NCBI GenBank assembly: GCA_012719395.1
Contig: JAAYAL010000020.1
Location: forward strand, 1 to 43,012
Reading direction: 5' to 3'
From: Gaiellales bacterium
GTDB taxonomy: Bacteria; Actinomycetota; Thermoleophilia; RBG-16-64-13
DNA length: 43,012 nucleotides
Below the pieces are notes generated by a model. The model was not told the DNA's origin. It ran no database searches and saw nothing but the letters and a program-made list of their open reading frames with translations. Below are positions 17,292 through 20,421 of the stretch, piece after piece. Positions within the stretch are counted from its first letter, which is position 1; each line of letters begins with the position of its first letter. Both the position numbers and the translations under genes were made by a program.

Positions 17292-17425
17292 TCCGGCTCC
17301 TTTCGGGTTATGCCCGTGCAGGGCTGGGTACCAGTAACAGGATAGTGGATGAGGCATTGATGAGGTCCGAAGGGTCGTCCGGCCGGCGTGGGACCGAGTG
17401 GCCGGCGTGGTTCGGGATGGCGCCG

Positions 17426-17469
17426 TTGCCCCCAAGGCTCGGAGCTGTTAGTATACCCCCATGGGTATA
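17426..17469 (+). promoter_or_regulatory. promoter with CsoR/CstR-like operator for the thioredoxin operon
   Basis: A perfect 7-base inverted repeat with a 4-base spacer, TATACCC-CCAT-GGGTATA, spans 17452-17469. It has the form of operators bound by CsoR-family repressors (copper-sensing CsoR, persulfide-sensing CstR). It overlaps a plausible promoter, TTGCCC at 17426, 17 bases, TAGTAT at 17449, covering the -10 and start site as a repressor site would. The nearest downstream gene is the thioredoxin, 80 bases on. No CsoR-family gene is in the window. Confidence 0.6.
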
Positions 17470-17548
17470 AAGGAGCCGGGTATCACCGGGGACAAAGGTC
17501 GGCCGGACGATCGTGGGGCTGCAAACGACAAGAGCGAGGAGACGGTCG

Positions 17549-17875
17549 ATGGCAAGTGAGTTCGTCAAGGAACTGGACGGTCAGTCGTTCGAAACCGAAG
17601 TGATCGGTGCACCGGGTCGGGTCGTGGTTGACTTCTGGGCTCCTTGGTGCGGCCCGTGTCGCATGGTGGGGCCGGTGTTGGAGAAGTTGGCCAGCGAGCA
17701 CACTGAGGCTCTCAAAGTAGCCAAGATCAATGTGGACGAGAACCAGGCGCTGGCTGCACGCTTTGGCATCATGAGTATTCCCACCGTCATCCTCTTCGAG
17801 AACGGCAAGGTCAAGGCCCAGATTGTGGGCGCGCGGACGCAGAAGGACTACGAGAAAGAGTTCGGTTTGGAGTAG
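17549..17875 (+). CDS. trxA: thioredoxin
   Basis: A 108-residue classical thioredoxin, a small cytoplasmic dithiol reductant. The active site WCGPC (Cys34, Cys37) sits in VVVDFWAPWCGPCRMVGP, and the cis-proline loop is SIPTVILF (around residue 75). Length and order match the family. The ATG at 17549 has AGGAGA seven bases upstream; the GTG at 17513 is an unlikely upstream start. It is the first gene after a CsoR/CstR-like operator and lies 65 bases before a thioredoxin-fold gene with an in-frame UGA, so both may serve one redox task. The last codons and stop are duplicated in tandem just downstream. Confidence 0.97.
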   Translation: MASEFVKELDGQSFETEVIGAPGRVVVDFWAPWCGPCRMVGPVLEKLASEHTEALKVAKINVDENQALAARFGIMSIPTVILFENGKVKAQIVGARTQKDYEKEFGLE

Positions 17876-17895
17876 AGGGCTTTGGAGTAGAAGGC
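17866..17895 (+). repeat. 15-base tandem duplication at the trxA stop
   Basis: TTTGGAGTAGAGGGC is followed at once by TTTGGAGTAGAAGGC, 14 of 15 bases identical. The first copy contains the last codons and stop of trxA; the second lies in the gap before the next gene. It looks like a recent local duplication. Confidence 0.8.
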
Positions 17896-17940
17896 TTGTC
17901 TGGGGCGGCCTCAAGCCCGGCGAGCCTGATGGAGGTGACC

Positions 17941-18270
17941 ATGGATCAGGTCAAGAGCAAGGAGATGGTCATCCTGGGGTCCAGGGCGGCCGATGCATGT
18001 CATGCCGGTGGTTGAGGTCCCTCTCTGTCTCTGGAGGAGACAGTGGGGTACATCAACCGCTACCTGCGTGAAGATTACGGCGAAGACGTCGGCGTGACGT
18101 ACCTGGACATATCGGATAGGGTCATCCAGGAATACCCGGCGTTGGCCGAGGCTCTGGAGGCGGGCAAGCGGCTTCCTCTGGTTCTGGTGGGTGATGAGGT
18201 CAAGCATCCTTGGTCGCTCTCTTTCTCCTGGGTGGTGAACGAGCTCAAGGGCCTGGGAGTCGTGGAGTGA
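17941..18270 (+). CDS. probable selenoprotein, thioredoxin-like (SaoT-like), UGA read as Sec
   Basis: If the UGA at 18013-18015 is read as selenocysteine, the gene encodes 109 residues with one continuous frame. The N-terminus reads as a first beta strand (KEMVILGSRAADACHAGG), then Sec25, then GPSLSLEETVGYINRYL, a strand (VGVTYLDI) and a closing RLPLVLVGDEVKHP region, the order expected of a thioredoxin fold of the YuzD-like or SaoT-like kind. A cysteine, Cys20, precedes the Sec (C-HAGG-U). The ATG at 17941 has GGAGG five bases upstream. A hairpin fitting the bacterial SECIS rules follows the UGA. Without readthrough only 24 residues are made, or a headless 75-residue product from a GTG at 18043 that lies inside the hairpin. 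The family name SaoT is from memory and not certain. The stop overlaps the next start (TGATG). Confidence 0.72.
18013..18048 (+). promoter_or_regulatory. candidate bacterial SECIS element
   Basis: Directly after the UGA (18013-18015), CTGTCTC (18025-18031) pairs perfectly with GAGACAG (18037-18043), leaving the loop UGGAG. A lower stem (18020-18023 with 18045-18048) adds four pairs after one U-U mismatch. The loop starts 17 bases after the UGA and has G at its second position, which fits the published bSECIS rules (loop 16-37 bases from UGA, short loop with G in the first two positions). Read by eye; folding energy was not computed. Confidence 0.65.
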
Positions 18271-18470
18271 TGGGCAGCTTCGATCTCCACTGTCGTGCGT
18301 GTGGGAGGGATTTCGAGGTGTTCGTGCAGGGCTTCCTGAAGGAAACACACAAGGTGTGCCCTGATTGCTGCAGCCGCGAGGTGGAACAGCGCTTGACAGG
18401 CGGGTTCGTTCATCAGTCATCCAAGCCCGTGGGCGGTGGTTCGCACACGTGTGGTCCCAGCTTCGGCTGA
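18270..18470 (+). CDS. FmdB-type zinc ribbon protein
   Basis: A 66-residue protein with the FmdB/putative-regulatory zinc ribbon: Cys8-x2-Cys11 (HCRACG) and Cys30-x2-Cys33 (CPDCCS), spaced as in that family, where the knuckles bind zinc. The tail is Gly/Ser-rich and ends HTCGPSFG, with one more cysteine. The ATG shares its A with the stop of the selenoprotein frame, so it is translationally coupled to it; this overlap also supports that the upstream frame is truly translated to 18270. Function unknown; zinc ribbons of this kind often accompany redox or metal operons. Confidence 0.8.
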   Translation: MGSFDLHCRACGRDFEVFVQGFLKETHKVCPDCCSREVEQRLTGGFVHQSSKPVGGGSHTCGPSFG

Positions 18471-18538
18471 GCGCACTAGGGAGGCCGGTCGGCCTTCTTG
18501 AGATCGAGAACCCCGGTACGTGTATGATGCGGTAAGAG

Positions 18539-18576
18539 GCGGCGCCGGGCGGCCCTCACGGGCCGCCCGGCGCCGC
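18539..18576 (+). terminator. long GC hairpin between the redox operon and lgt
   Basis: A perfect 17-base-pair stem with loop TCAC: GGCGCCGGGCGGCCC (18541-18555) pairs with 18560-18574, extended by two more pairs. Only three T follow, so it would be an intrinsic terminator of the U-poor type. A promoter-like TTGAGA (18498) and TATGAT (18523), 19 bases apart, lie upstream, so the hairpin could instead stand in the lgt leader. Confidence 0.6.
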
Positions 18577-18599
18577 AGCCTTTGACAGGTAGGGCATAG

Positions 18600-19493
18600 A
18601 TGCATCCAGAGCTTCTGCGAATCGGCTCTTTGACCATCAACTCCTATGGTCTCATGATGGCCTTGGGCTTCATCGCGGCCGGGGTCCTTGCCGCGTGGGG
18701 CTTCAAGCGCCGTGGCCTGAACCCGGACAGCGCCATTATCGGCCTCATGGCCGCTATGGTGGGTGGGCTGGTAGGTGCCAAGCTCCACTACCTCATCATC
18801 AATCCCGGCAGCTTCCCTGAAGCGGTATTCAGCGGGCGGGGGCTGGTATGGTACGGAGGGCTGCTGGGGGGGACGCTGGGCGTGATCCTGGCGCTGCGGT
18901 GGCAGAAGGTGCCGATAGGGCCGGCGGCGGATGCCGTTGCACCCGGCCTGGCGGCGGGTTACGCCTTTGGCCGGATCGGATGCCTCCTCAACGGATGCTG
19001 CCACGGCAGCGAGACCTCGCTGCCGTGGGGCATGGTATTCCCGGTGGGCTCTCCTCCCACCAGCGTCCCCGTGCATCCCACTCAGTTGTACGAGAGCCTC
19101 GCGTCACTGCTCATACTGGGTGTCCTGCTGTTCCTCCTTCAGCCGCGCCTGCGGCGCACTGGGGCGCTCTTCTGGGCGTATGTGGCGCTGGCCGGCCTCG
19201 AGCGGCTGCTGGTGGAGTTCCTTCGCATCAACAGGCCGGTGTGGTTGGGTCTCACTCAGCAGCAGCTCATCAGCGTGGGCATGATCGTTGCCGGGTTGGT
19301 CGGCGTCATCTGGCTCTACCGTCGGGGAGCGGAGGTGGAGCCCGTGAGCCTCAGGTCGGCGGGGGAGACTCACGGTGCAGCCGGGGCCGGGCTCCGTGGG
19401 GGGGCTGTTGCCGGCCGCAAGGCCGGAGCCAACACCGCCGGTGCCAGAACACGTGGTGGAGGCGCTGTCGGCAGTGCGGGTAAGCGCTCGTAG
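18600..19493 (+). CDS. lgt: prolipoprotein diacylglyceryl transferase
   Basis: A 297-residue Lgt, the integral membrane enzyme that moves diacylglycerol from phosphatidylglycerol to the lipobox cysteine of prolipoproteins. About seven membrane helices are visible. The signature region is GRIGCLLNGCCHGSETSLPWG (residues ~122-142), followed by HPTQLYESLASL and the late GLERLLVEFLRIN, all typical of Lgt. The C-terminal ~50 residues are an Ala/Gly/Arg-rich extension with no membrane segment, common in high-GC genomes. The ATG lies 23 bases after a strong hairpin; the ribosome site (AGGTAGGG) is modest. A DUF4349 lipoprotein elsewhere in the window would be one substrate. Confidence 0.94.
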   Translation: MHPELLRIGSLTINSYGLMMALGFIAAGVLAAWGFKRRGLNPDSAIIGLMAAMVGGLVGAKLHYLIINPGSFPEAVFSGRGLVWYGGLLGGTLGVILALRWQKVPIGPAADAVAPGLAAGYAFGRIGCLLNGCCHGSETSLPWGMVFPVGSPPTSVPVHPTQLYESLASLLILGVLLFLLQPRLRRTGALFWAYVALAGLERLLVEFLRINRPVWLGLTQQQLISVGMIVAGLVGVIWLYRRGAEVEPVSLRSAGETHGAAGAGLRGGAVAGRKAGANTAGARTRGGGAVGSAGKRS

Positions 19494-19611: not shown

Positions 19612-19839
19612 ATGCAACGGCGCAGATTGCGGGCCATGCGGCGGGGCCCGGCCGTGGGGTTCCGGCGCTCGGAGACGGGGTGCGCCGGGGGGCGTGGCAG
19701 GGAGCCCGGTCGGGCATCATGTTGATCATGCTGGCGGTGCTCGCCTTGGCCCTGGGCGGATGAGGGCGGACACATCATCGGCACTCGAGTGGGAACCACG
19801 ACCGCGGACCAGATGGCCGGACTGGTGAATGGCGACTGA
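19612..19839 (+). pseudogene. remnant of a lipoprotein-like gene
   Basis: A basic N-terminus (MQRRRLRAMRRG) starts at the ATG 19612, but its frame stops at 19725. A second frame then carries a signal-peptide-like core, LIMLAVLALALGG, which ends in a TGA (19761-19763) where a lipobox cysteine codon would stand. A third frame (GGHIIGTRVGTTTADQMAGL...) runs to a stop that overlaps the ccdA remnant. Joined, these pieces resemble a short lipoprotein broken by at least two shifts and one stop. No family is recognisable. Sequence errors could give the same picture. Confidence 0.35.
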
Positions 19840-20336
19840 GTCCATCAACGTCGGCGCGTTCCTCCTCGCGCTGCTCGCTGGCGCGGCCACCTTTCTCAGC
19901 CCATGCGTGCTTCCCCCTCTTGCCCGGATGCCTTTCCTTCGTCTCCGGTCTCTCCGTTGACCATTTGGATTCCGTGCGCCGGCGCGCGCTCGACCCCGTG
20001 CTCGTCTTTGTCCTCGGCTTTGCGTGGTTCTCACGCCGGCCGGGGCCGGAGCGGTGCTGATAGGGGATGCGCTTCACCGGTACGAGCGGGAGTTGCAGAT
20101 CGTTTCGGGGGCGTTGTTGATCGTGCTGGACTTGGTGGTGGCGGGCGTGGTGCCGGTGTCTTGGCGGGAGCGCTCTTCCGCCGCATACTTGGGTGGCTGG
20201 GCTGGGTGACGCGGCACTTCAAGCCGGTGAAGGCCGTGGCCGGGGACTGCTGGCTTTCTATGGTCTGCCCATTCTCTTGGGCCGGCTCACGTGGCTTTCG
20301 GCGCAGTTGGGTCGGTTCCGCTTCTTCGAGTTGTAG
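19829..20336 (+). pseudogene. ccdA-like (cytochrome c biogenesis/thiol-disulfide transporter) pseudogene
   Basis: Five stretches in shifting frames make a recognisable CcdA/DsbD transmembrane protein: INVGAFLLALLAGAATFLSPCVLP (trimmed), then LPGCLSFVSGLSVDHLDSV, AGAGAVLIGDALHRYERELQ, VLAGALFRRILGWLGWVTRH and a C-terminal LPILLGRLTWLSAQLG. The SPCVLP motif with its redox cysteine is intact. Four frame changes are needed, the first at the C5 run 19913-19917 and others near 20024, 20165 and 20245. The total (~169 codons) is shorter than a usual CcdA (~230), so deletion is also likely. An active CcdA would pass electrons across the membrane, often from thioredoxin, which is encoded 2 kb upstream. 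Either a decayed gene or a poorly sequenced one. Confidence 0.7.
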
Positions 20337-20421
20337 GGGAGGCACAACGTCGGGCAGAGATCGGGACCCTTGGGAGGAATATGAGCACTGGCGATTGGGA
20401 CGTGTCAGAGTTGCGGGGCGC

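Follow-up and report, generated by a model that had tools for sequence, protein, structure and literature searches.

A reading frame that continues across UGA

Does the UGA at codon 25 of a short gene in a Gaiellales bacterium end translation, or is it read as selenocysteine (Sec), and what might the full-length protein do? The gene lies within the 43,012-nt stretch of DNA analyzed here (hereafter the window; contig JAAYAL010000020.1, assembly GCA_012719395.1), which belongs to an incomplete assembly of 92 contigs. From an ATG at 17,941–17,943 on the forward strand, preceded on that strand by a GGAGG ribosome-binding site at 17,931–17,935, the frame is open to a terminal TGA at 18,268–18,270 that overlaps the next ATG (18,270) by one base, and it is interrupted by a single internal stop, the TGA at 18,013–18,015, exactly as the initial annotation had described. 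Read through, the gene (17,941–18,270) encodes 109 amino acids, with Sec25 in the sequence GSRAADACHAGG-U-GPSLSLEET and Cys20 in the motif C-HAGG-U. Because the UGA falls at codon 25, gene callers would lose this gene; the same annotation had expected them to split or lose it, and the standard ORF list gives an ORF from GTG 18,043 to 18,270. Based on comparative sequence evidence, we consider it highly probable (about 0.93–0.95) that the UGA is decoded as Sec and that the gene represents a new selenoprotein family.

The gene is the second of an apparent operon on the forward strand. The first operon gene is trxA (17,549–17,875), encoding a thioredoxin with a WCGPC active site (Pfam Thioredoxin, 102.5 bits), and the Sec gene is followed by a gene for an FmdB-type zinc ribbon (18,270–18,470), whose start overlaps the Sec gene stop (Zn_ribbon_8, E 3.7e-8; 33.7 bits with a cut-off of 34.4). 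The examined loci of the window's family (f1) share this order of trxA, Sec gene and FmdB-type zinc ribbon, the last with its start overlapping or close behind the Sec gene stop. Further along the same strand, at 19,800–20,400, a CcdA-like membrane protein is split over two frames, either as a pseudogene or through assembly frameshifts; it is intact in two relatives (L042, L051).

A search of the order found homologs in 12 of 18 genomes; for the class, it was 27 of 299, with 12 carriers in f1 and 15 in a second family, f6, at 30–72% identity to the window protein. Each of the 27 class carriers has exactly one internal stop, which is always TGA and always at the aligned codon; including seven distant relatives with UGA at this codon, neither UAA nor UAG ever occurs there. 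Invariant residues are found on both sides of the UGA and include G13, S14, D18, G24, Sec25, P27, S30, L31, E32, E33, N39, L42, Y54, D56, and P79. The most conserved stretch, codons 26–34, lies right behind the UGA and ahead of any downstream start, and pN/pS is below 0.4 both upstream and downstream of the UGA.

These patterns bear directly on the reading of the UGA as a true stop, with a 24-aa leader and an independent 75-aa ORF starting at GTG 18,043, or with a decayed gene. The presence of that ORF in the standard list is what such a reading would predict, but the coding constraint is unbroken across the UGA, residues 26–34 are the most conserved of the protein, and the UGA is retained in all homologs together with a covarying hairpin (described below), all of which makes termination at codon 25 very improbable. 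Homologs that end before the UGA would have spoken for it; instead, the UGA and the downstream coding sequence are kept. A false UGA through sequencing or assembly error is hardly credible, given that separate genomes from many genera carry the identical UGA, even if the broken CcdA-like region indicates that errors or decay can occur close by.

When 396 genomes of the phylum were searched with a profile, two further Sec groups came to light, f51 (CFSGG-U-GPSWTPAE) and f29 (CGFG-U-GSYGLSQAE), as well as one Sec candidate whose UGA is shifted (L063). The same search yielded Cys forms with Cys at the aligned place (L066, GGCG; L073, NICGSF) or shifted (L068), and Cys is also found at the aligned place in ArsD (VCGPS) and YuzD (ASCVN). 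No close Cys form was found in these searches; all Cys forms are distant from the window protein. The homologs thus bear out the expectation of Sec at the aligned position, or Cys in distant relatives. In the shifted relative (L063/L085, from genome G521) the UGA lies some codons ahead of the aligned Cys (GGUGPVCEPADCGP) and is accompanied by its own strong hairpin, possibly representing a second Sec position within the same fold. The core branch has Sec in every member found, with Sec relatives in further actinobacterial families.

The SECIS hairpin and the selenocysteine machinery

Behind the UGA, on the forward strand, lies a candidate bacterial SECIS hairpin at 18,025–18,043, CUGUCUC-[UGGAG]-GAGACAG, in which 18,025–18,031 pairs with 18,037–18,043 in a perfect 7-bp stem and the loop UGGAG occupies 18,032–18,036. 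Published rules for bacterial SECIS elements specify a loop of 3–9 nt, a stem of 4–16 bp, a spacing of 16–37 nt, an MFE of −7.5 kcal/mol or lower, and a G within the first two loop positions (PMC13188914). The window hairpin conforms to all of these, with a UGA-to-loop spacing of 16 nt, a 7-bp stem, a 5-nt loop with G as its second base, and an MFE of −9.5 kcal/mol for the 19-mer by itself; the segment 18,013–18,060 folds with an MFE of −21.1 kcal/mol (z −2.23). The stem, loop and G that the initial annotation had reported are all present, with support from folding and covariation. Of the window's 1114 TGA trinucleotides, counted on both strands, just 7 (0.6%) are followed by a comparable stem, loop and spacing, and since this fraction has a hairpin as good, the structure by itself is modest evidence; it becomes decisive because it is conserved and covaries among homologs. 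An Rfam scan of 17,300–18,700 gave no match.

The hairpin is found in all UGA-bearing members of f1, f6, f51, and f29, a few of which have single mismatches in the lower stem, and L063 carries a different one. Across 16 distinct 21-mers from the four families, 96.9% of cells are paired, changes on both sides of the stem occur in 19 cells compared to 6.8 in shuffles, and the covariation score is 0.524, compared to 0.182 or less when the structure is slid by 1–3 columns. The apical pair is seen as UA, CG, AU, GC, GU, and UG with an invariant GG inside it, in agreement with the published loop pattern N1-G[G/U]-N-N2 (PMC13188914). Protein conservation alone does not explain the hairpin, because the residues encoded there differ among groups (SLEE, SPAE, TPAE, SQAE, SRAE) while the RNA helix is retained. 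Similarly, synonymous differences are reduced about threefold in the hairpin codons (pS 0.21, compared to 0.62–0.65 outside), and UCU is the Ser codon in every Ser-encoding hairpin, a codon that accounts for 8.6% of Ser codons in ten ORFs of the window.

The machinery to decode the UGA is encoded in the window genome (G000), as the initial annotation had asked to be checked: a tRNA-Sec (76.7 bits; anticodon TCA by ARAGORN), SelB and SelA clustered on contig C20, and SelD (L090; G000:C8:15431–16357). The SelD gene has a UGA inside its UxxK motif, and its product is itself predicted to be a selenoprotein. SelB and tRNA-Sec would decode the UGA at 18,013–18,015 by means of the hairpin at 18,025–18,043, and translation would run on to 18,270, giving a 109-aa cytoplasmic selenoprotein.

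Among the genomes of the class, tRNA-Sec was detected in 22 of the 27 carriers vs. 104 of 272 non-carriers (Fisher p 1.5e-5, a value from which relatedness has not been removed), and SelA is present in all five carriers where tRNA-Sec was not detected, so that 27 of 27 have tRNA-Sec and/or SelA. SelA is absent from both genomes that have Cys forms only (f16). Two observations weigh against Sec decoding: genus g11 includes four genomes with the Sec machinery that lack the Sec gene, and in one distant UGA-bearing carrier (G385 of f29, a 97% complete assembly) neither tRNA-Sec nor SelA was found, perhaps owing to an assembly gap.

A probable branch of the DUF1462/ArsD-like thioredoxin group

AlphaFold2 models (pLDDT 83.5 and 84.3, with low confidence in the Sec loop itself) have the element order strand, Sec-bearing loop, helix, strand, helix, and Pro79-strand-strand-helix, which is thioredoxin-like. 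In these models, Sec25 is predicted to lie in the loop before helix 1, the site of the thioredoxin active-site cysteines, with Pro79 at the cis-Pro position. The top Foldseek TM-scores were to ArsD (3ktb, 0.58/0.61), followed by a TM-score of 0.55 (rmsd 5.0) to the DUF1462 structure 1xg8, with weak E-values of 0.03–0.08. Profile comparison (hhalign) gave a probability of 76 for ArsD and of 80 for DUF1462/YuzD, the latter with an approximate YuzD profile of two rows in which the 1xg8 sequence had been recovered with a YuzD probe sequence. Of the distant Sec relatives scanned, two, L064 and L067, score above the DUF1462 Pfam cut-off (35.0 and 31.2 bits; cut-off 25 bits). Both ArsD and DUF1462 are included in the thioredoxin clan (PMC3091736).

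DUF1462/YuzD (PF07315; solved as 1xg8, Staphylococcus aureus SA0789/SA0798) may have its thioredoxin-like fold in common with the window protein, whose Cys/Sec site aligns with the second Cys of the YuzD CxxC; the first Cys is not conserved (AGGU here). Unlike YuzD, the window protein has Sec in place of Cys and an extra GSRxxDxC motif before the site, and it does not reach the Pfam cut-off. With ArsD (PF06953, NF033727; 3ktb, 3kgk, 3mwh) it shares the C-x4-C/U spacing followed by GPS, as well as a similar LP-LVLVGDE strand region. Unlike ArsD, it has Sec, has neither the adjacent CC pair nor the C-terminal Cys pairs, and has no Pfam or NCBIfam match; where ArsD has the three-Cys As(III) site CC-x4-C, the window protein has one non-universal Cys and Sec. 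SaoT (NF040730), Sec.1/Sec.2 (PF13192), and HUIPC (NF047660) are likewise small thioredoxin-fold proteins with UGA-coded Sec, but their motifs (UxxC, CxU, and UxC) differ from that of the window protein, which none of their HMMs matched.

The window protein had no significant match to NCBIfam (20.0), Pfam or PADLOC models, and a direct sequence search of the PDB returned nothing credible. Membership in YuzD or ArsD was rejected, as scores were below the curated cut-offs, and both are retained as a relationship. SaoT identity was also rejected: none of the 27 members matched the NCBIfam model, and the motif after U is U-G-P-S, not UxxC. Of the two family resemblances initially proposed, the one to YuzD is thus supported by profile and, tentatively, by the predicted fold, and the one to SaoT is not. 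The core of that proposal, a new type of selenoprotein with a thioredoxin-like fold, agrees with the homologs, the SECIS element, the Sec machinery and the absence of a family model match. The family is missing from published lists of 87 and 119 prokaryotic selenoprotein families (PMC9312934, PMC13188914). In the literature, which was partially covered and in which absence is not proof, no paper joining selenoproteins and YuzD was found, and the available part of the single DUF1462 paper found contains no discussion of selenium. We place the family as a mostly Sec-using and previously unlisted branch of the DUF1462(YuzD)/ArsD-like thioredoxin group, adding to the list of 119 prokaryotic selenoprotein families and subfamilies.

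Possible functions: sulfur, general reduction or metalloids

Our tentative proposal for the function is a selenol-based persulfide/polysulfide reductase or sulfur carrier. The Sec25 selenolate would attack the sulfane sulfur of a persulfide or polysulfide, or, acting as a carrier, accept sulfur; the Se-S bond so formed would be reduced by the thioredoxin from trxA just upstream. The operon may be induced through a CsoR/CstR-family repressor acting on a putative operator, the palindrome TATACCC-CCAT-GGGTATA at 17,452–17,469 (no strand assigned), about 85 nt before trxA, with the core TACCC-N4-GGGTA at 17,454–17,467. The type 2 CsoR operator is ATATACCCCTNAGGGGTATAT (PMC3902906). Both have a TAC/GTA dyad bridging two C/G tracts, with a spacer between TAC and GTA of 9 in the CsoR/CstR operator and of 8 in the window palindrome.

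The palindrome is present in all 11 f1 loci with a complete gene and upstream DNA, 419–503 nt ahead of the Sec gene, and with one mismatch in the 12th, which has a partial gene. It also lies upstream of the gene in three of four f29 loci and two of three f51 loci (one mismatch in the third). Only one of the 15 f6 loci has it (L035, position −91), and it is therefore not claimed for f6. The window genome has five exact sites vs. three for a reversed control pattern, so the count alone is weak. Another exact palindrome lies about 80 nt before the type III sulfide:quinone reductase (SQR) of the window genome (621 bits, cut-off 525; Cys form, HANC), and a one-mismatch palindrome precedes its only CsoR-family gene, followed by trxB. 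Compared by eye with CsoR/CstR sequences, this repressor appears to keep two Cys and to have Arg at the CsoR His position; no CstR model matched it.

In S. aureus, CstR is the regulator of sqr (PMC5480029). As in CsoR/CstR operons, where SQR is under such a site, SQR stands behind one here, and so does the operon of trxA, selenoprotein and FmdB. In G483 of f29 (L083:58–2470), OsmC, a type III SQR, an 84-aa helical protein with no Pfam match, and a Sec-containing DUF1462-like gene form one apparent operon, in which the SQR has its own in-frame UGA (HATU), matching the published HxxU motif. The selenoprotein subtype of type III SQR (NF049943), with Sec or Cys, thus shares with the new family an operator-like site (window genome) or an operon (G483). 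As a flavoprotein of about 400 aa with unrelated sequence, it would be a partner, not a homolog. Taking SQR, the palindrome and the G483 neighbors together, we tentatively favor reactive sulfur, whether as signal or as substrate. If this is true, the Sec protein, thioredoxin and a type III SQR that sometimes has Sec itself would constitute a selenium-based sulfide response under control of a CstR-like repressor, linked by a candidate shared control site. Weighing against a sulfur function are a distant Sec relative in an arsenic operon (L085), the lack of the palindrome in most of f6, the spacer one base short, and a site count that is not rare.

The protein could instead be a selenol reductase of general use, acting with thioredoxin on disulfides or peroxides and not specially tied to persulfide or metalloids. 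This type is common among prokaryotic selenoproteins (PMC13188914), and the thioredoxin fold, trxA in the operon and a CcdA-type gene near relatives are all in keeping with this role. We nonetheless regard it as rather unlikely, as the putative operator is common to SQR and there is no conserved resolving Cys. Three genera (g2, g3, g4) of the window's own family have W or T in place of Cys20, so that the C-HAGG-U redox motif initially proposed holds for Sec25 and not for Cys20 as a universal partner. A universal Cys20-Sec25 redox pair is ruled out by this loss, and an obligatory C-x4-U pair is only partly supported.

A third explanation, to which we assign a low probability, is an ArsD-like selenoprotein whose Cys20/Sec25 site would bind or hand over arsenite or a different soft metal(loid). 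The sequences C-HAGG-U-GPS and C-STGV-C-GPS (ArsD) are alike in spacing and sequence, ArsD has the best TM-score and a profile match probability of 76, and the Sec relative of G521 is flanked by arsA and acr3, in an operon that also encodes ArsD. That operon (L085) combines the Sec relative and, behind it, FmdB (TIGR02605, above cut-off) with ArsD, ACR3 and what we take, from sequence by eye, to be ArsR and two ArsA-like genes. However, the adjacent Cys pair of ArsD is missing, Cys20 gives way to W or T in the three genera noted above, no ars genes were recognized among the listed neighbors of the larger f1 and f6 loci, and both the putative operator and the connection with SQR speak for sulfur. 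The family offers a testable proposal for where selenium serves sulfide/persulfide, or arsenic, chemistry.

Some other features of the window genome and its relatives were also recorded. Beside the f6 Sec genes of three listed loci lies a ThiI/MnmA-like PP-loop protein with an NFACT-R domain (L046:7273–8304, L047:5674–6768, L048:6837–7898), which resembles ThiI-type enzymes of sulfur transfer and is named by Pfam in L046 and by resemblance in L047 and L048. Near one palindrome of the window genome (L093:53–771; G000:C9), translated repeats VAPRAGAWIET and FQSTPPRGER are typical of a CRISPR array, and this palindrome is probably not regulatory. Another palindrome, TTATACCCCATAGGGTATATA (L094:1501; G000:C24:16873), lies ahead of an MgtC-family gene.
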